A DNA stretch of 36,574 bases, taken from the NCBI GenBank assembly GCA_938001915.1, contig CALLBD010000094.1, forward strand, positions 1 to 36,574, read 5' to 3'. The position numbers and the translations under genes are program-made. This stretch comes from an uncultured Caulobacterales bacterium (GTDB lineage Bacteria; Pseudomonadota; Alphaproteobacteria; Caulobacterales; Maricaulaceae). The first letter of the stretch is position 1, and every line of letters starts with the position of its first letter. Under the pieces are notes generated by a model that saw nothing but the letters and a program-made list of their open reading frames with translations, made no database searches and had not been told where the DNA came from. Below, piece by piece: positions 3,553 through 33,008 of this stretch.

Positions 3553-4167
3553 TTATCTTTTCCTTATCAGCTCGATTTCATCGGCGAGCGCGTCATTGCC
3601 TTCCGCGCGTAAAGTTTCAATAATGCGGGCTTGCGTCTGCGCATCTTTGTTTTGACTGAGCTTACGAATGCCGCGCAAAGAGTCCATACGCATTTCGAAA
3701 TAGAGGATATTCGAGAATAGCCGCGAGGCATATTTCGCCGCCTCCTCCATAGCCCAGCCACCTTCTGGCTCATAGGTCTCTGTTAGCTCCGCCATACGGT
3801 CGACGCTCTCTTCTGCAGACAGCATCCGCGTTGTACCGTGAACATGCACGCTGACATAATCCCAAGTCGGCACGGATTTTTCAGGGTTCGTATAAAGCGT
3901 GGGCGAGATGTAATCATGCGGCCCATGAAAGGCGGCAAGGAAAATCATGCTCGTCCCAATGAAGGCGGTCATCGGATTATTCGCTGCCAGATGCCCATAT
4001 AAAAACTCGCCGTCGCGCACCATCGGCAGATGCGTCGCGAGCGGCCCGTCAACATTTGACGAGGCGAGTAGTGCAAAGCCATGGGTGTCTATGATGCGGT
4101 TTATGTAGTCGGTGCTGTCATCAACATAATAGGGGGGCGGGTAGGACATATCGGAAGTTACGAACAA
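3553..4167 (-). CDS. FMN-binding PaiB-like protein
   Basis: A 204-residue protein of the split-barrel flavin family usually annotated as FMN-binding negative transcriptional regulator (PaiB). Visible landmarks are the N-terminal tract YPPPYY, ATHLPMV (about 44-50), YGHLAANNP (about 57-65), SVPTWDYVSVHVHG (about 98-111) and the C-terminal KLSQNK typical of PaiB. In Bacillus PaiB is linked to repression of sporulation and protease genes, but most family members have no tested role. An alternative start six codons further in would remove the ten-base overlap with the upstream lipoprotein gene. Confidence 0.82.
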   Translation of the reverse strand: MFVTSDMSYPPPYYVDDSTDYINRIIDTHGFALLASSNVDGPLATHLPMVRDGEFLYGHLAANNPMTAFIGTSMIFLAAFHGPHDYISPTLYTNPEKSVPTWDYVSVHVHGTTRMLSAEESVDRMAELTETYEPEGGWAMEEAAKYASRLFSNILYFEMRMDSLRGIRKLSQNKDAQTQARIIETLRAEGNDALADEIELIRKR

Positions 4168-4607
4168 ACAAAAATCGGTTCATGCACTTCATTGTCACTG
4201 ACAATGTAAAACGAACCCATTTTTTTAGAACCGAAAACAAAATAGCTTAAGTTCGTTAGGTTTCCATTAGTAGTGCAGTTTTTCACTTTATATTCTATTT
4301 CAGCAGAGCCGAGGTAAACGTTTACACCGTCTAGATCGCATGTAGTTGCACCTACGAAAACCCTCTTATTTTCTGAGTTTATTTTTGTAGATTCAGTACA
4401 GTCTGAAGACAAATTAAAGGCCTTTTTAGTCAAGGCATCTAAGATTGGTGCAAGTCTCGCTTCGGCTTCTAAGTTCGGAGTAGCTTTATTTAATGCGATT
4501 TGCTCTTCGCTATTGGGTTTTGACATTGTGGCTTCATCAGCCGTCTCTACAACGGATTCGCTGCATCCCAATAAGACTACAGCGAAGCTGGATAAAGCTA
4601 TTCTCAC
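4158..4607 (-). CDS. Small predicted lipoprotein, AT-rich
   Basis: A 149-residue protein with a short N-terminal hydrophobic stretch ending in VVLLGC, a plausible lipobox with lipidated Cys15, followed by an acidic Ser/Glu/Thr linker. Four further cysteines (in CTES, TTCDLD, VKNCT and FVCS) could form disulfides in the periplasm. I do not recognise the fold. The stop of the upstream acyl-CoA dehydrogenase overlaps its start by one base, so it is built into the operon, yet its base composition is clearly more AT-rich than its neighbours. This suggests a later insertion or relaxed selection. Confidence 0.6.
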   Translation of the reverse strand: MRIALSSFAVVLLGCSESVVETADEATMSKPNSEEQIALNKATPNLEAEARLAPILDALTKKAFNLSSDCTESTKINSENKRVFVGATTCDLDGVNVYLGSAEIEYKVKNCTTNGNLTNLSYFVFGSKKMGSFYIVSDNEVHEPIFVCS

Positions 4608-24038: not shown

Positions 24039-24611
24039 ATGAAGACCAAGACGAATATAGATGAGCGAATTCTCGCGCTCGCCGAACCGATTGCGGTAGA
24101 TTTGGGTCTGCATATTGTGCGCATTCGCGTTATGGCGGGAAAGCGGCGCACCGTGCAAGTCATGGCCGAGCGTTTGAGTGATGGCTTGATGAATGTCGAA
24201 AATTGCGCGGATCTCTCCCGTGAGCTCTCTGCAATTATGGAGGTCGAAGACCCGATTGCTGAGGCCTATATGTTGGAGGTCAGCTCTCCGGGATTGGACC
24301 GCCCTTTGACGGACCTCGAGGATTTCACGAAATATGAAGGCTATCTTGCCCGCCTCGAACTCGACCGCCTTGTTGAGGGGCGTAAACGCTTTCGCGGCGT
24401 TTTGGCCGGCGTTGAAGAGGGCCATGTTGATATTAACCTCGACGGCGAGACGGATAGCACGGCCTCCATTCCCTTTGAGTGGATTGCCGAAGCCAAACTC
24501 CTCATCACCGATGAGCTGATAAAAAAGGGCCAAGAGGCCAAAGAGGCCGCTCAAAAAAAGAGCGTAGCTGACAACCCAGAGACGACACCTGAAAAAGAAG
24601 GAGACGCATAA
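24039..24611 (+). CDS. rimP: Ribosome maturation factor RimP
   Basis: A 190-residue RimP, needed for 30S subunit maturation. Family landmarks are AEPIAVDLGLHIVRIRV near the N terminus, VENCADLSRELSAIMEVEDPI (about 58-78) and LEVSSPGLDRPL (about 84-95), followed by the SH3-like C-terminal barrel and a Lys/Glu-rich tail. The frame is open from a TTG at 24006, but the first ATG (24039) begins at the conserved length, so it is preferred. Its stop overlaps the nusA ATG by one base, the classic rimP-nusA coupling. Confidence 0.95.
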   Translation: MKTKTNIDERILALAEPIAVDLGLHIVRIRVMAGKRRTVQVMAERLSDGLMNVENCADLSRELSAIMEVEDPIAEAYMLEVSSPGLDRPLTDLEDFTKYEGYLARLELDRLVEGRKRFRGVLAGVEEGHVDINLDGETDSTASIPFEWIAEAKLLITDELIKKGQEAKEAAQKKSVADNPETTPEKEGDA

Positions 24612-26275
24612 TGTCCACAGCAGGAATTTCCGCCAATAAGCTAGAGCTTATCCAAATCGCAAAAGCGGTTGCGAGTGAAAAATCAATCGATGAATCCATT
24701 GTTTTGGAAGCCATTGAAGAAGCTATCCAAAAGGCCGCGCGCCTGCGTTACGGCGCTGAGCTGGATATTCGCGCGAAGATTAACCCCGCCACCGGCGAGC
24801 AAACTTTGCGCCGCGTCATCTCTGTTGTGGCCGACGAAGAGGTCGAAAATGAGTCAACGCAGATTGGTATTTCAACGGCCAAGATGGATAATAAGCTGAT
24901 GGAAATCGGCGACGAAATTTCTACCACGCTCCCGCCGCTAGAATTTGGCCGTGTCCAAGCGCAAATGGCGAAACAGGTCATTATGGGCAAAGTGCGCGAC
25001 GCCGAACGCGCCCGTCAATTTATGGAATTCAAAGACCGCGTGGGCGAGATTATCAATGGTATCGTTAAGCGGGTCGAATATGGACATATCATTGTTGATC
25101 TCGGTCGCGCCGAAGGCGTTATTCGCCGCGACCAAGCTCTGCCGCGGGAAAATGTCAAAGGCGGCGACCGTATTCGCGCCTATATTATGGATGTGCGCGA
25201 AGAACCACGCGGCAGCCAAATTTTTCTCTCGCGCGCCCATCCGCAATTCATGGCGCAACTCTTTGCCCAAGAAGTGCCAGAGGTTTATGAAGGCGTGATT
25301 CAAATCGTTGGTGTTGCTCGTGATCCGGGCTCCCGCGCAAAAATCGCTGTCTTCTCAAATGATAGCTCTATTGATCCTGTCGGGGCCTGTGTGGGTATGC
25401 GCGGTTCTCGCGTTCAGGCCGTTGTCAATGAGCTCCAAGGCGAGCGCATCGATATTATTCCTTACACAGAAGATATGGGGACATTTATTGTTAATGCCCT
25501 CCAGCCCGCCAATGTAACCAAAGTTGTCATCGACGAGGCCAATGGTAAAATCGAAGTCGTAGTCCCCGAAGAGCAGCTGTCGCTTGCGATTGGCCGCCGC
25601 GGCCAAAATGTGCGTCTCGCTTCACAGCTCTCTGGCTGGGCGCTCGATATTCTCACCGAGGAACAAGAATCTGAGCGTCGTCAGCAAGAGTTCAAAGAAC
25701 GCTCTGAGCTCTTTATGGCGGGTCTCGATGTGGACGAAATGGTCGCCCAACTTCTTGTCTCGGAAGGCTTCGAGACGATGGAAGAAGTCGGCTATGTCGC
25801 CATTGAGGACTTAACCTCTATTGAAGGCTTTGATGATGAAACGGCCGAAGAGCTTCAGGCGCGCGCCCGGGAATATCTCGAGCGCATTGCGACCGAGCAA
25901 AATGACAAACGGATTGCGCTGGGCGTAGAAGATGAAGTCCTCGAAATCGAAGGTGTCACATTACCGATGGCTGTGCGCTTTGGCGAGAACGAGATTAAAA
26001 CCGTCGAAGATGTCGCGGGTCTCGTGCCGGATGATCTGAATGGATATTCTGAATATAAAAACGGCGAACGTATCCACGAAGAAGGCATGATTGAGGATAT
26101 GAAACTCACGGATGATGAGGCTACGCGCCTTATCATGCAGGCCCGCGTCGCCGCAGGTTGGATCGAAGCCTCCGCCCTTGAGCCCGAAATCGAAGAGGGC
26201 GAAGAGGGAGCCGAAGGCGAAGCGGCTGCCGAAGAGGCAGCGGCAGAGCCAACAGCAGAGACGCTCTTTAATTAG
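24611..26275 (+). CDS. nusA: Transcription termination/antitermination factor NusA
   Basis: A 554-residue NusA. In order: the RNA polymerase-binding N-terminal domain (1 to about 125), S1 (about 135-200, [16 protein letters not shown]), KH1 and KH2 (about 225-345, [16 protein letters not shown] and [16 protein letters not shown]), then two acidic helix-hairpin-helix repeats (about 370-520) of the long alphaproteobacterial/gammaproteobacterial form, and a very acidic Glu/Ala tail. It controls pausing, termination and rRNA antitermination. The gene is followed directly by a strong terminator, which is unusual because ylxR and infB normally follow on the same transcript. Confidence 0.97.
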
Positions 26276-26328
26276 TGCAATTAGCAGAAATGCACCGAGC
26301 AATTCTGATCTAGACATTAAATTTGAAA

Positions 26329-26358
26329 GCCGTCGCCTCATTAGGTGGCGGCTTTTTT
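26329..26358 (+). terminator. Rho-independent terminator after nusA
   Basis: A 10-base stem (26329-26338 with 26343-26352, including two wobble pairs) with a CATT loop is followed by six T residues (26353-26358). It lies 54 bases after the nusA stop. Confidence 0.9.
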
Positions 26359-26488
26359 AATGTTCTTTTTGTAGCTTCGGTTGTTTTGCCGTTTTGTTCA
26401 TCTCTCTATTTAGAGTTAAAAGGGATGTTCGTTTGCGTGGTCAGGTTCTGGCGGAGCAACAAATAAAGGTTTTGAGCTTTCCCGATCC

Positions 26489-26516
26489 GTGCAATTCCTG
26501 CAAACAGGAAATGCAC
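26489..26516. repeat. Inverted repeat 1 of the nusA-ylxR spacer
   Basis: Arms 26489-26500 and 26505-26516 are 12 bases each with one mismatch around a CAAA loop. The tip, TTCCTG-CAAA-CAGGAA, resembles the next palindrome about 65 bases further on. Confidence 0.75.
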
Positions 26517-26565
26517 CAATTGTCAGAAAGCTCCACGCGGCGACGCCTTTTTCCGCTGAGGGTTC

Positions 26566-26592
26566 GTTGATTTCTGCAAAGCAGAAATCAAC
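26566..26592. repeat. Inverted repeat 2 of the nusA-ylxR spacer
   Basis: A perfect 12-base inverted repeat (26566-26577 and 26581-26592) with only AAA between the arms. No T-run follows on either strand, so it is not a conventional terminator. Confidence 0.85.
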
Positions 26593-26698
26593 TGACGAGC
26601 CAGTCATAGGGTAAACAGCTCACGCCAGGCCGCCCGACTATGCTTACGTTACCCAGCATCGTCCCATGACAAGCGCCGCTTCTCTCCGAACCTTGCAT

Positions 26699-26775
26699 TT
26701 CCTGATAAAATTACCAAACAAAGCCCTTCAAAATGGGCGAAAGAGGCCCAATTTGAGAGCCTTAGCCATCAGGAA
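26699..26775. repeat. Nested inverted repeats, possible structured RNA or mobile remnant
   Basis: Outer arms TTCCTGAT (26699-26706) and ATCAGGAA (26768-26775) are perfect complements. Nested inside, 26728-26738 pairs with 26746-26756 over 11 positions with one A-A mismatch around a GAAAGAG loop. The whole would fold into an interrupted long hairpin of 77 bases. Confidence 0.6.
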
Positions 26776-26981
26776 TTACACTGACTAAACTGTTCGGGTA
26801 AGATAATTTTTTTATGAGGTGTACTATTTAAAAGCTAGAGGCTCTTTCAGAGGAAAGAAATTGGATGTTCCATGGGTTTTAGCGGTACCGGGAAGGCGAG
26901 GAAGTTACGGTTCAACCAAAAAGGGGTTGCGGTTTGTACAAATATGAATTCAAAAGTGTATCTATCGAGGGAGACGGGAAA

Positions 26982-28247
26982 ATGGCTGAACCAATTAATC
27001 AAGGCTTTAAACCAACGCTCTTTCCCATGATGTCTTCTGGCGAAGATCAAGCAACGTCGATTTTATTTGGTATGCTTGCCTTAGTATTTCCGTTTAGGGA
27101 TATTATGCTGAGATCAATTGGAAGATCGGCATACAAGTCAGGCAATGATTTCTCAGCATTTTTGCATCCATCATTTGGCGGCAAATATTCGAAAAAAGAC
27201 GTTCCAGACGGAGTTATTCACCTTGACCAAAAAGACAAGTGGAGCGCACTTGTTGAAGTTAAAATAAAAACTCAAGACTTGTCGAATATTCAGCTAGACA
27301 ATTACCTTCAAAGAGTTCGTGACTCTAAAATGGATGCACTTGTTACCATTTCAAATGAATTGTGTGCTCAACCAAACATGCCGCCGTTGAGATTAAAAAG
27401 TGGAAATAAGACTTTGAGAAGAATTCCGCACTTTCATTGGTCTTGGCAGTTCATTCGTTTTCAGGTCAAAAAATTATTGAGAACCGATAAAGAAATGACC
27501 TTGATTGAATTTGAGCTACTAAATCAATTTTTGGGTTTCCTCGAGCACCCAAAATCGGGTGTGGCTGGGTATGTAGCTATGCCAAAAGATTGGAAGAAAC
27601 TCGTTGATAAGTTACGAGAGCGCGGCAAGCCTAATCAAGATTTACTAGAAGAATCTGTTACAGGATGGTTTCAGGAGACTGCTGAGCTTGCGCTTATTTT
27701 AGCAGGAGAGTTGAATGTCGAAGTGGAAGAAATTATTGACCAAACTTCGGTAGAAAGGCGACGAGAAGACGGTGTTAGTCGGTTGCAAAACACCGGAGAT
27801 TTGATTGCGAGTTTTAAAATTGAGGGCTGCAAAAACCCCCTAAATGTCAGACTTGATGTCGATAGGAGGAGCATTCAATTTTCGGTAACTCATGATGTTC
27901 CAACATCAGCAAAAACTCCTTTTGTACAAATCCAACATTTTTTAAAAAAGTTTCATCAGGATGATGAACATAATCAATGGGGTTCGCATGATGATGTTCG
28001 TCTGTTTTGTCGTTGGCCGAGAGCAAAAGATAAAACGGATATGACTTTGTTTGATGCTATTCAGCATTCGTTGGACGATGAAATGAAAAACGCGCCTATT
28101 ATCAGGCAAGACAAAGACAAAATTATGGATTTAGAATTGCGTTATACTCCGTCAAAGGTCTCTGGCAAAATTTCAAGTCGGACACAGGTCATTACTTTGC
28201 TAGAGGAAGAAATTGTATTCTTTGCAAGAAATTACTTACCCGCCTAA
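26982..28247 (+). CDS. PD-(D/E)XK nuclease-like protein, AT-rich orphan
   Basis: A 421-residue protein from the preferred ATG, which has a GAGGGAG ribosome site 8 bases ahead; a TTG at 26934 would add 16 residues. The N-terminal part has the order of a PD-(D/E)XK nuclease: an early helix with Glu in SGEDQATSIL, then PDG with Asp76, then ALVEVKIKT with Glu92 and Lys94, and a following helix with Gln in NIQLDNYLQ. Residues about 150-421 are not recognised. Base composition is clearly more AT-rich than nusA, tdk or infB, and the gene splits a normally continuous operon, so horizontal acquisition is likely. A DNA-degrading defence role is possible; no methyltransferase, helicase or other partner is adjacent. 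No family name can be assigned from memory. Confidence 0.7.
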   Translation: MAEPINQGFKPTLFPMMSSGEDQATSILFGMLALVFPFRDIMLRSIGRSAYKSGNDFSAFLHPSFGGKYSKKDVPDGVIHLDQKDKWSALVEVKIKTQDLSNIQLDNYLQRVRDSKMDALVTISNELCAQPNMPPLRLKSGNKTLRRIPHFHWSWQFIRFQVKKLLRTDKEMTLIEFELLNQFLGFLEHPKSGVAGYVAMPKDWKKLVDKLRERGKPNQDLLEESVTGWFQETAELALILAGELNVEVEEIIDQTSVERRREDGVSRLQNTGDLIASFKIEGCKNPLNVRLDVDRRSIQFSVTHDVPTSAKTPFVQIQHFLKKFHQDDEHNQWGSHDDVRLFCRWPRAKDKTDMTLFDAIQHSLDDEMKNAPIIRQDKDKIMDLELRYTPSKVSGKISSRTQVITLLEEEIVFFARNYLPA

Positions 28248-28267
28248 ATTTTAGTAAGGGTAAGTAA
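28232..28267. terminator. Inverted repeat spanning the nuclease-like stop codon
   Basis: TTACTTACCC (28232-28241) and GGGTAAGTAA (28258-28267) are perfect 10-base complements with a 16-base loop, itself partly symmetric (CTAAA-T-TTTAG). It covers the end of the nuclease-like gene and the short gap to the convergent tdk. On the minus strand TTTCTT follows, so it may serve as a terminator for tdk and a weak one for the plus-strand gene. Confidence 0.5.
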
Positions 28268-28272
28268 AACAG

Positions 28273-28863
28273 CTATCCCGCCCCCCGCACCTTTTTCGCC
28301 ATCCAATGCTTTCGGCACAATGTCACATAGCGGTCATTACCGCCTATCTCGACTTGTTTGCCGCGCGTCACCGCCGCGCCGGATTTATTGACGCGCAATG
28401 TCATGGTGGCTTTGCGTCCGCACCAGCACAGCGTTTTAATTTCTTTGATTTTATCGGCAATCGCCAAAAGGGCGGCGCTGCCGGGGAAAAGTTTGCCTTG
28501 GAAATCTGTGCGCAATCCATAGCACATAATCGGAAGGCCCATGTGATCGGCCACGCGGGAGAGCTGCCAGACTTGGGCTTCCGTTAGGAATTGCGCCTCA
28601 TCCACCAAAACGCAATTCAGAGCGGTGTCATCATGGACGGCTTGGATATGTTTTTCTAAATTTTGCTCAGGAGTAATGATGTCGGCTGTAGCGGAGAGGC
28701 CAATCCGGGACATGATCTGGTCCTCCCCATCTTCGCGCGTATCAATGGCTGGTTTGAGCAAAAGCGTACGCATCCCGCGCTCATGATAATTATAAGAGGA
28801 TTGCAACAGGATCGTCGATTTGCCCGCATTCATGGCCGAGTAATTAAAGTAAAGTTTCGCCAT
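28273..28863 (-). CDS. tdk: Thymidine kinase
   Basis: A 196-residue type II thymidine kinase, phosphorylating thymidine to dTMP in salvage. The P-loop is SAMNAGKST (9-17), the Walker B-like DEAQF is at 88-92, and the zinc-binding lasso region has Cys146/Cys148 and Cys183/His186. Length and composition match the family and the rest of the chromosome. It lies in reverse orientation between nusA and ylxR, and its start is only 42 bases from the proposed ylxR start, so the two promoters must be divergent and overlapping. Confidence 0.95.
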   Translation of the reverse strand: MAKLYFNYSAMNAGKSTILLQSSYNYHERGMRTLLLKPAIDTREDGEDQIMSRIGLSATADIITPEQNLEKHIQAVHDDTALNCVLVDEAQFLTEAQVWQLSRVADHMGLPIMCYGLRTDFQGKLFPGSAALLAIADKIKEIKTLCWCGRKATMTLRVNKSGAAVTRGKQVEIGGNDRYVTLCRKHWMAKKVRGAG

Positions 28864-28905
28864 GTCCCGCCAGTCCTGATTCGACGCCGACTATGCAAAA
28901 TCGGT

Positions 28906-29667
28906 TTGCTCGAATCTAGACGGAAGAGCGCTGCCTTATCAGACCCCTTGCTAATTTTTGCGGAAGGCCCCATATCGCGGCTCTTGAAAGAGCAGCCCGA
29001 TATCATCCTCCCAGCAGAGCTGGATAAGCGCGGACATAAATCGCGCGAACGCAAGTGCGTAGCGCGGGGTGAAGTCCGCGATCCCGCAGAGATGATCCGC
29101 TTTGTCTTGGGACCCGATAATCAGATTTATCCCGATATTTTGGGGAAATTACCGGGACGCGGAACCTGGGTCAGTGCCAGCCGTGAAGATTTAGATGTCG
29201 CTATACAAAAGGGCGGTTTCAAACGCGGTTTTAAAGGGAATGTAATCATAGCTGATGACTTGGTTGCGCAAATTGAGGCAGGGCTCAAAAAGCAAACTTT
29301 ATCGTTAATTGGTATGGCAAAAAAGTCAGGCAAATTATTCATTGGTTTTGACCAAGTCATGGCGGCTGCACGGACCGACGCGTTGGGCTGGCGTATTGAA
29401 GCCCGCGACGGCGCGGAAGGCTCACGCGGGAAAATCCGAACTTTATCCAAAGCCGTTGCTCGCGAGGTCGAGTTAAAACTACCGCGCGTTATTGGATGTT
29501 TCGACAGTACCGAATTGGGCGCTGTTGTGGGACGCGACGCAATCACGCATTGCGCTGTTCCGCATGGACGAATTGCGAAGTCTCTCGGCCAGTCGGCAGC
29601 GCGTTTAAATGGCTTTTTGCCGCTTGTACCAGAGGGTTGGGCCGACGCCCAACACGAAGCTTTCTAA
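28906..29667 (+). CDS. YlxR (DUF448) RNA-binding protein with L7Ae-like half
   Basis: About 253 residues from the proposed TTG start. Residues about 45-125 are the YlxR/DUF448 domain (SRERKCVARGEVRDPAEMIRFVLGPD, then LPGRGTWVSASRE). Residues about 128-215 resemble an L7Ae-like RNA-binding domain (LSLIGMAKKSGKLFIGFDQV, followed by the AREV region). This two-part form is normal in alphaproteobacteria, directly upstream of infB. The frame is open leftwards to 28663, but that part is antisense to tdk and is not credible. No in-frame ATG exists between the tdk start and the conserved domain, so the start is uncertain. YlxR proteins have been linked to regulation and RNase P in other bacteria. Confidence 0.8.
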   Translation: MLESRRKSAALSDPLLIFAEGPISRLLKEQPDIILPAELDKRGHKSRERKCVARGEVRDPAEMIRFVLGPDNQIYPDILGKLPGRGTWVSASREDLDVAIQKGGFKRGFKGNVIIADDLVAQIEAGLKKQTLSLIGMAKKSGKLFIGFDQVMAAARTDALGWRIEARDGAEGSRGKIRTLSKAVAREVELKLPRVIGCFDSTELGAVVGRDAITHCAVPHGRIAKSLGQSAARLNGFLPLVPEGWADAQHEAF

Positions 29668-32541: not shown

Positions 32542-32829
32542 TTATCCGTTCGCGGCTTGCGTGAGCCCCGACTCATTTGCTTTTTCTAGATATTCTTCGA
32601 CGCCTTCAAAAAATGTGTTGGGCGCAACATCGAAAACTTTGCACAATCCCCATAAACGACTTGCACCAATTCGGTTCGTCCCACGTTCGTATTTTTGAAT
32701 TTGTTGAAAGGTAACTCCTACCTTATTTGCAAGATCTGTTTGACTATATCCGGCCAATTTCCGAAGCGATTTGAGTTGGCTGCCCACAAATGCATCCACC
32801 TCTGTCGCTGTCCTAACATGCGATTTCAT
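32542..32829 (-). CDS. XRE family helix-turn-helix regulator
   Basis: A 95-residue protein from the third in-frame ATG (32829); ATGs at 32859 and 32841 would add 10 or 4 residues. The Cro/C1-type HTH covers about residues 17-73: LKSLRKLAGYSQTDLANKVGVTFQQIQKYERGT with the QQIQKYE recognition helix. This HTH_3 type with a short acidic tail (NTFFEGVEEYLEK) is common in alphaproteobacterial chromosomes and not specific to phage. Its targets are unknown. It is in reverse orientation between infB and rbfA, separating two genes that are usually close together. No toxin partner is adjacent. Confidence 0.85.
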   Translation of the reverse strand: MKSHVRTATEVDAFVGSQLKSLRKLAGYSQTDLANKVGVTFQQIQKYERGTNRIGASRLWGLCKVFDVAPNTFFEGVEEYLEKANESGLTQAANG

Positions 32830-33008
32830 AAATTTTTCCATTTTGCTATACGCGCCCAACTTTGTATAACTAAGCGTGTGTCCCTGAAAACGCTCTTAAT
32901 GATATTTTAGTCACCGTGTCTAGGGGGGTCTCTTAACTTTTCCGTGTTCACACCATTCAGTGGTTTGAAGGCTTGGCAATTTTGTTTTCGCGGCTTACAG
33001 CGACGCCT

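Follow-up and report, generated by a model that had tools for sequence, protein, structure and literature searches.

Introduction

The described proteins that come closest to the one reported here, P0001, include Can2, Card1 and Cap4, effector nucleases with a fused sensor in which a PD-(D/E)XK domain and a second domain form one protein. P0001 is built in the same way, and all three enzymes are among the nearest folds to its N-terminal domain (Z 7.3, 6.5 and 5.3, respectively, all below 8). It differs from them in having neither a CARF or SAVED match nor a conserved partner, and its second domain is C-terminal and finds chaperone-like matches. VRR-NUC (PF08774) is a further point of comparison. 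Nine of 29 family members give a weak Pfam signal for it across the active site (best E 0.016), and the solved VRR_NUC structure 4qbn is a fold match with a Z of 5.3. P0001 itself, however, scores 14.9 bits, which is below the curated cut-off of 23.8.

Ter systems are related in another way, since plasmid-borne relatives of P0001 consist of TerD placed ahead of the same two-domain protein, whereas P0001 has no TerD. Papers on Ter systems consider that TerD may bind a ligand within a response to phages or xenobiotics (PMC7824862, PMC7159879, PMC3710099), a role that fits a nuclease output. Finally, YbjN, type III chaperones (TY-chaperones) and DUF1054 proteins are the leading, weak structural neighbours of the C-terminal domain. 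Unlike in those proteins, the domain is fused to a nuclease here, and it has no sequence match in Pfam or PDB. In a 2022 survey, such domains are grouped as TY-chaperones, with a chaperone function predicted in conflict-type systems (PMC9503650).

The results below support a conserved two-domain protein of the PD-(D/E)XK type, encoded by a gene that is lone, patchily distributed, mobile, AT-rich and under selection. A single-gene defence role is plausible.

Results and Discussion

The gene and its surroundings

The gene for P0001 (421 aa) occupies positions 26982..28247 on the forward strand of the window, by which we mean the whole 36,574-nucleotide stretch of DNA that was analysed. It was delimited by its ORF, its relatives and a 29-row alignment (A3). 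The frame starts at the ATG at 26982 and stays open to the stop codon at 28245-28247. Purine-rich GGGAGACGGG lies immediately 5' of this ATG and is a plausible ribosome-binding stretch, and the position of the start codon is common to the 81% identical copies in the sister genomes G007 and G009. On the 5' side lies nusA (24611-26275), named from its own sequence and from the original prediction. On the 3' side, the thymidine kinase gene tdk (28273..28863, minus strand; PF00265, 3.3e-52) is convergent with the nuclease gene.

Between nusA and the nuclease gene, a terminator-like hairpin was found by consensus match at 26325..26356 (plus strand); the stretch holds five such sites against 3.4 expected, a number near chance. 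Also upstream of the nuclease gene, at 26422..26701, is an unstranded repeat with palindromic pieces that is 67-86% identical to six other places in the same genome and has no match in the G007 interval. It is a possible MITE- or REP-like element. An unstranded inverted repeat with 10-nt perfect arms (28232..28267) spans the stop codon, between the nuclease gene and tdk. A search of positions 26000-29000 against Rfam gave no RNA element at gathering score.

With a GC content of 0.394 and a GC3 of 0.351, the nuclease gene has the lowest GC3 and the second-lowest GC among the 29 tabulated genes of the window, 22 of which have a GC3 of 0.51-0.61. Another strongly AT-rich ORF, possibly foreign, lies on the minus strand at 4158-4607; its GC of 0.391 is lower than that of the nuclease gene, and its GC3 is 0.36.

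A predicted PD-(D/E)XK domain at the N-terminus

Alignments, an AlphaFold model and fold matches delimit an N-terminal domain of approximately residues 15-190 (27024..27551, plus strand). In an alignment of 11 sequences, E21, P75, D76, E92, K94, Q104 and Y108 are invariant. In A3, which comprises P0001 and 28 relatives that are 21-81% identical to it and excludes L052 and L071, both split, as well as the plasmid fusions, D76, E92, Q104 and Y108 remain invariant, and E21, P75 and K94 are conserved in at least 90% of the sequences. We take the set of E21, PD, ExK and Q104xxxY108 to be the PD-(D/E)XK pattern with its helix glutamate and QxxxY motif. The codons for D76, E92 and K94 are found at 27207-27209, 27255-27257 and 27261-27263, respectively.

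The model of P0001 built from the 29-row alignment reached a pLDDT of 89.5 and a pTM of 0.87. It places E21 in a helix (20-34), D76 directly before a strand (77-82), E92 on a strand (86-93) with K94 right behind it, and Q104 and Y108 on a further helix (102-114). When the model was compared with known structures by VIA-align, 41 of the 50 rows listed fell on residues 1-194, and about 38 of these 41 are presumably PD-(D/E)XK enzymes (Z 4.4-7.3). They include Can2 (7.3), AspBHI (6.9), FokI (6.6), a Pyrococcus repair endonuclease (6.6), Card1 (6.5), MspJI (6.4) and EndoMS (6.2), as well as Hjc, FAN1 and McrC; all values are below 8, and the tool cautions that 7-8 is typical even of models for which there is no clear match. 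Foldseek found no match in the PDB at E <=0.001 (best 0.075, a McrB-McrC entry). Among viral models, the two best-scoring ones (E 3.8e-4 and 7.4e-4) carry the name of PD-(D/E)XK nucleases.

The assignment is persuasive because a single enzyme superfamily fills the VIA list and the active-site residues agree with it. Since the Z values stay below 8 and the best Foldseek E against the PDB is 0.075, it extends to the fold class only and not to a subfamily. At that level, membership of the PD-(D/E)XK class is well supported by the conserved motifs, the model and the fold matches, and nuclease activity is predicted. By sequence, P0001 gave nothing above the cut-offs in Pfam, NCBIfam, PADLOC, PHROGs or PDB. 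At E <=10, VRR_NUC was the sole Pfam match, and PADLOC-DB 2.0.0 gave none. All 29 family members taken together matched PADLOC only weakly (best E 0.0015).

A C-terminal domain with weak chaperone-like matches

Residues 196-421 (27567..28244, plus strand) form, according to the model and the fold search, a second domain, for which we propose a sensor role. Modelled alone from 29 rows, it reached a pLDDT of 92.0. The top VIA match was the DUF1054-type structure 2a8e (Z 7.6, rmsd 4.3, 170 residues aligned), followed by 1yb3 (6.4), 2plg (6.3), Spa15 (6.2), the DUF1054 structure 3mqz (6.2), YbjN (6.0), AmyR (6.0) and ExsC (5.7), with unrelated proteins appearing from 5.6 on. The rows for YbjN and type III chaperones span Z 4.6-6.3 and are thus all weak (<8). 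Foldseek gave nothing in the PDB at E <=0.001 (best E 0.28), and a sequence search of the PDB gave no match. When the 29 C-domains were compared with Pfam, 15 weak families were listed, and YbjN and TY-Chap were not among them. A fold like that of type III chaperones, YbjN and DUF1054 is therefore named here as the best lead that the model offers.

The original prediction had placed D76, E92 and K94 in PD-(D/E)XK order, with a helix Glu (E21) before and a Gln (Q104) after. These residues are conserved in 29 sequences, and the structural comparison recovered a nuclease core. It had also left 270 residues unrecognised. This holds for sequence profiles, none of which matched above cut-off, but most of these residues form one folded domain with weak chaperone-like matches.

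Distribution of the family

The nuclease family is patchy in its distribution. Its members occur in 4/18 genomes of the genus and 8/60 of the taxonomic family (the window's own genome included), and in 9 of the 100 near genomes, again with the window's genome counted. Within the class, 22 of 385 genomes are positive (approximately 6%). A sample of the phylum yielded 11 positive genomes out of 299, seven of them outside the class; nine extra loci from the phylum were examined by eye and with three PDB searches.

Two family members used as queries found no match among the 50,697 records of a phage collection, and only TerD fusions among the 72,556 records of a plasmid collection. Four scans of IMG/VR, which detect close relatives only, returned one locus (L046). 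No description of the family was found in the titles and abstract openings covered by our literature search, which did not extend to the work of Anantharaman et al. (2012) about Ter systems.

No conserved partner at the family loci

No conserved neighbour surrounds the family genes, in agreement with the original prediction of an orphan without partner genes. A partner gene was considered and rejected: the widest cluster of neighbours occurs at 7/33 loci and is adjacent to the family gene at only one of them, L053, where the neighbour reads as a presumed short-chain dehydrogenase-like protein. Many of the loci sit among genes that read as housekeeping. At L048:5570-9846 (genome G028), for example, the gene lies between what we take to be cobS-like and cobT-like genes, another split of usual neighbours.

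To look at the nearest neighbours, 105 of the 154 listed ORFs were compared with PADLOC and counted without a matched random control. No more than a few of these neighbours matched. Matches were obtained for 53 families, 44 of them through one SNF2 helicase at L054; the 25 families listed are matched by one protein each. RTasSbcB and PD-T7-4 were each matched by one neighbour protein, the former probably being exonuclease I (L054). Some loci nevertheless have the look of conflict-type or mobile settings. A SIR2 protein is encoded 69 bp downstream at L139 and an SF2 helicase 18 bp downstream at L137, both on the same strand. The remnant at L147 adjoins, on the opposite strand, the gene for a 1570-aa helicase, and the nuclease gene at L065 abuts a gene-transfer-agent-type gene. 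As these settings were read without a matched control, we give them little weight.

A recurring module lies beside the family genes at L046:1-5167 (an IMG/VR contig) and at L067:124-6355 and L071:12110-15567 (genomes). It comprises a terminase large subunit, a small KGQSGNP-type protein and a ParB-like protein, with a DUF2924-like protein at two of the loci and a serine recombinase-like protein at one; apart from the terminase, these names are our own readings of the proteins. The L046 terminase matches phage terminases, and the module may be a phage-satellite-like element.

TerD fusions on actinobacterial plasmids

Eleven plasmids of Streptomyces and Rhodococcus carry the nuclease module. Ten of them have a TerD family annotation, the record of the eleventh being unannotated, and a TerD domain was confirmed at residues 2-172 in the two fusions tested. 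In the alignment of the fusions, TerD stands in front, followed by the nuclease part and the C-terminal part. Seven of the 11 plasmid loci were opened; all seven fusions entered the tree, where they form one group (100/100).

Genes for ThiF, JAB and DUF6602 were located near the fusion in two of the three Rhodococcus plasmid regions opened. One of the Rhodococcus plasmids (L136:1-8248) carries genes for ThiF, Prok-JAB and DUF6602 and two unknown genes, followed by the TerD-nuclease fusion, an island that looks like a conflict system. A TerF-like vWA gene is next to the fusion in Streptomyces sp. CL7 and was absent from the other Streptomyces plasmid regions opened.

Pfam detected TerD neither in P0001 nor in the other members of A3. 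We also considered a TerD partner encoded elsewhere in the genome, and rejected it: a TerD search was negative in all 100 relatives' genomes (0/100), whereas the control search gave matches in 2/14. A link to Ter is therefore not needed here.

Relocation, AT-richness and selection

The nuclease gene lies 3' of nusA in genomes G000 and G007, and ylxR bounds the interval in G007 as well. The G009 copy directly adjoins the 3' end of nth, and the gap between nusA and tdk measures 72 bp in that genome; two sister species thus carry the gene at different sites. When the window is compared with the G007 and G009 copies, similarity begins no more than 10 bp from the start codon, with no flanking sequence in common.

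With one gene, nusA, as a proxy for the species tree, the two phylogenies disagree. The nusA tree pairs G028 with G048 (95/92; nusA 85.6% identical), genomes whose nuclease genes are 40.9% identical. The nuclease tree pairs G048 with G046 (99/93; 64.6% identical), and nusA is 74.5% identical there. Besides the split copies, this tree omits L074 and L118 (same genome as L060); it includes the seven plasmid fusions and shows the window's subfamily of seven as one group on a long branch. When relatives were ranked only by their identity to the window copy, inheritance had looked vertical, a view that was rejected when the comparison of all pairs revealed the conflict with nusA. Over seven genomes, the pairwise identities of the nuclease and nusA show no clear correlation, 584/5040 permutations reaching or exceeding the observed value.

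Composition was measured at 27 of the 28 loci L047-L074, with L052 dropped (no piece >300 aa) and L071 represented by its longer piece. At all 27 loci, the GC content of the gene is below that of its flanks, by 9.1 points on average (mean -9.1), whereas the other 196 ORFs of at least 250 aa have a mean of +1.8 points; gene calls in the fetched loci are longest-ORF guesses, so that false ORFs are included, also in these controls. The nuclease gene is the most AT-rich ORF of 250+ aa at 20/27 loci (3.9 expected), and its GC3 is the lowest at 21/27. GC at first and second codon positions is reduced as well (mean -0.067; below the flanks at 24/27 loci), and the AT-richness is therefore attributed to both codon choice and amino-acid make-up.

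Among the G000, G007 and G009 copies, pS is 0.80-0.86 and pN 0.12-0.13, with silent sites near-saturated, a saturation that makes dN/dS not computable. Judging from these sequences, the gene is held under purifying selection. Recent arrival as the sole cause of the AT-richness is a weak explanation, because GC3 stays low in these copies (0.34-0.40) despite the near-saturated silent sites; having outlasted this saturation, AT-richness is not a mark of recent arrival alone. Elsewhere, copies have decayed: the one at L071 (8870-11520) is broken by a transposase ORF (rve), the one at L052 (8531-9903) is split over two frames, and the one at L147 (9064-9324) is a short remnant. Thus, the AT-rich, foreign composition claimed originally turned out to be a property of the whole family, and vertical inheritance combined with housekeeping-like composition, which would speak against the original prediction, was not observed.

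Defence, repair and other readings

We read this locus as a nuclease gene that is mobile and complete in itself, its product including its own sensing domain; defence against mobile elements is likelier for it than repair, and we assign this reading a probability of about 0.5. We favour defence over repair because the family is patchy, changes its site, has decayed at some loci and is AT-rich; the ordinary surroundings and the missing PADLOC support keep our confidence at this level. Mechanistically, the C-domain, possibly chaperone-like, would bind a protein, a peptide or another stress cue arising in phage infection or upon entry of foreign DNA. Once bound, it would release the N-terminal nuclease, which would cut invading or all nucleic acid. 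Harmlessness of the nuclease to its host would then depend on the proposed sensor alone. On actinobacterial plasmids, the TerD domain in front, a possible binder of a Ter-system ligand, would provide one more input.

In a more specific form, which we consider less likely than not, the family would constitute undescribed one-gene immune nucleases in which a peptide-binding sensor, resembling type III chaperones and YbjN, responds to the state of a phage or host protein by setting free the fused PD-(D/E)XK domain, with TerD wiring the actinobacterial module to Ter.

Considerably less probable than the defence reading is that P0001 is a nuclease for DNA repair or stress, whose C-domain binds a protein of DNA metabolism and recruits the nuclease to DNA that is damaged or stalled. 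The patchy occurrence would then reflect a dispensable accessory function. The weak matches of the C-domain to YbjN and AmyR folds are consistent with this, as are the resemblance of the N-domain to the repair-type enzymes EndoMS, Hjc and FAN1 and the TerD fusions, which, together with the TerF-like vWA gene beside the one of Streptomyces sp. CL7, hint at a stress pathway. There is also an analogy in Deinococcus, where the YbjN-like protein DR1245 is reported to partner the SSB-like repair protein DdrB (PMC3575483). However, genes involved in conflict are the more usual bearers of family-wide AT-richness, a discordant tree, changes of site and decay of copies, and no repair-gene neighbour is conserved.

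We consider it rather unlikely that the protein is a type IV-like, modification-sensing restriction enzyme whose C-domain directly recognises invading DNA that is chemically marked, so that the nuclease can cut it, as in MspJI and AspBHI. A nuclease and a second domain in a single gene would suit such an enzyme, and AspBHI, MspJI and McrC are structural neighbours of the N-domain. But among the 50 rows for the C-domain, all weak, we read no base-reading domain, the lead being taken by DUF1054, YbjN and type III chaperones, and the domain order is reversed: in MspJI and AspBHI, the reader domain is N-terminal to the nuclease.

That the gene is of a toxin or selfish type, with a nuclease that holds back cell growth or furthers its own propagation without any defence benefit, is very improbable. 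In favour of this reading, it is a lone ORF at differing sites, three copies adjoin the terminase-ParB module and those at L071, L052 and L147 have decayed. Against it, the gene appears to be under purifying selection, the window, G007 and G009 copies have no flanking sequence in common, and the lack of a conserved partner of any kind means that no antitoxin is encoded at a fixed place.

If the gene does serve anti-mobile-element defence, island-based annotation would tend to miss the family because it is solitary. The family is present in about 6% of the sampled class genomes and reaches actinobacterial plasmids, yet P0001 is unmatched above cut-off in Pfam, NCBIfam and PADLOC. The TerD fusion is a candidate nucleic-acid-cutting output for the Ter stress pathway, and the strong AT-richness of the family offers a handle for finding similar lone cargo genes.

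The interval between nusA and ylxR

The gene was originally described as lying in a broken housekeeping operon. The nuclease gene and tdk do interrupt it, but the break was not caused by the nuclease gene, because six relatives lacking it at the nusA site have tdk there, some of them together with other cargo. Cargo is found on either side of tdk in the relatives, and nusA is closely followed by ylxR in 8/16 of the relatives' regions fetched. By our reading of the sequences, this cargo comprises metalloprotease-like, sulfotransferase-like, PLP decarboxylase-like, xanthine-dehydrogenase-like and dioxygenase-like genes. The check suggested originally, whether the site carries different cargo in relatives, thus had a positive outcome, but the cargo does not read as defence-like. 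Within one branch of the genus, what may stand between nusA, tdk and ylxR seems to be variable, and the idea of a dedicated hot spot for defence genes at nusA-ylxR was not supported. The same housekeeping cluster has a second interruption, an AT-rich HTH_3 gene (1.8e-14) on the minus strand at 32542-32859, between infB and rbfA.
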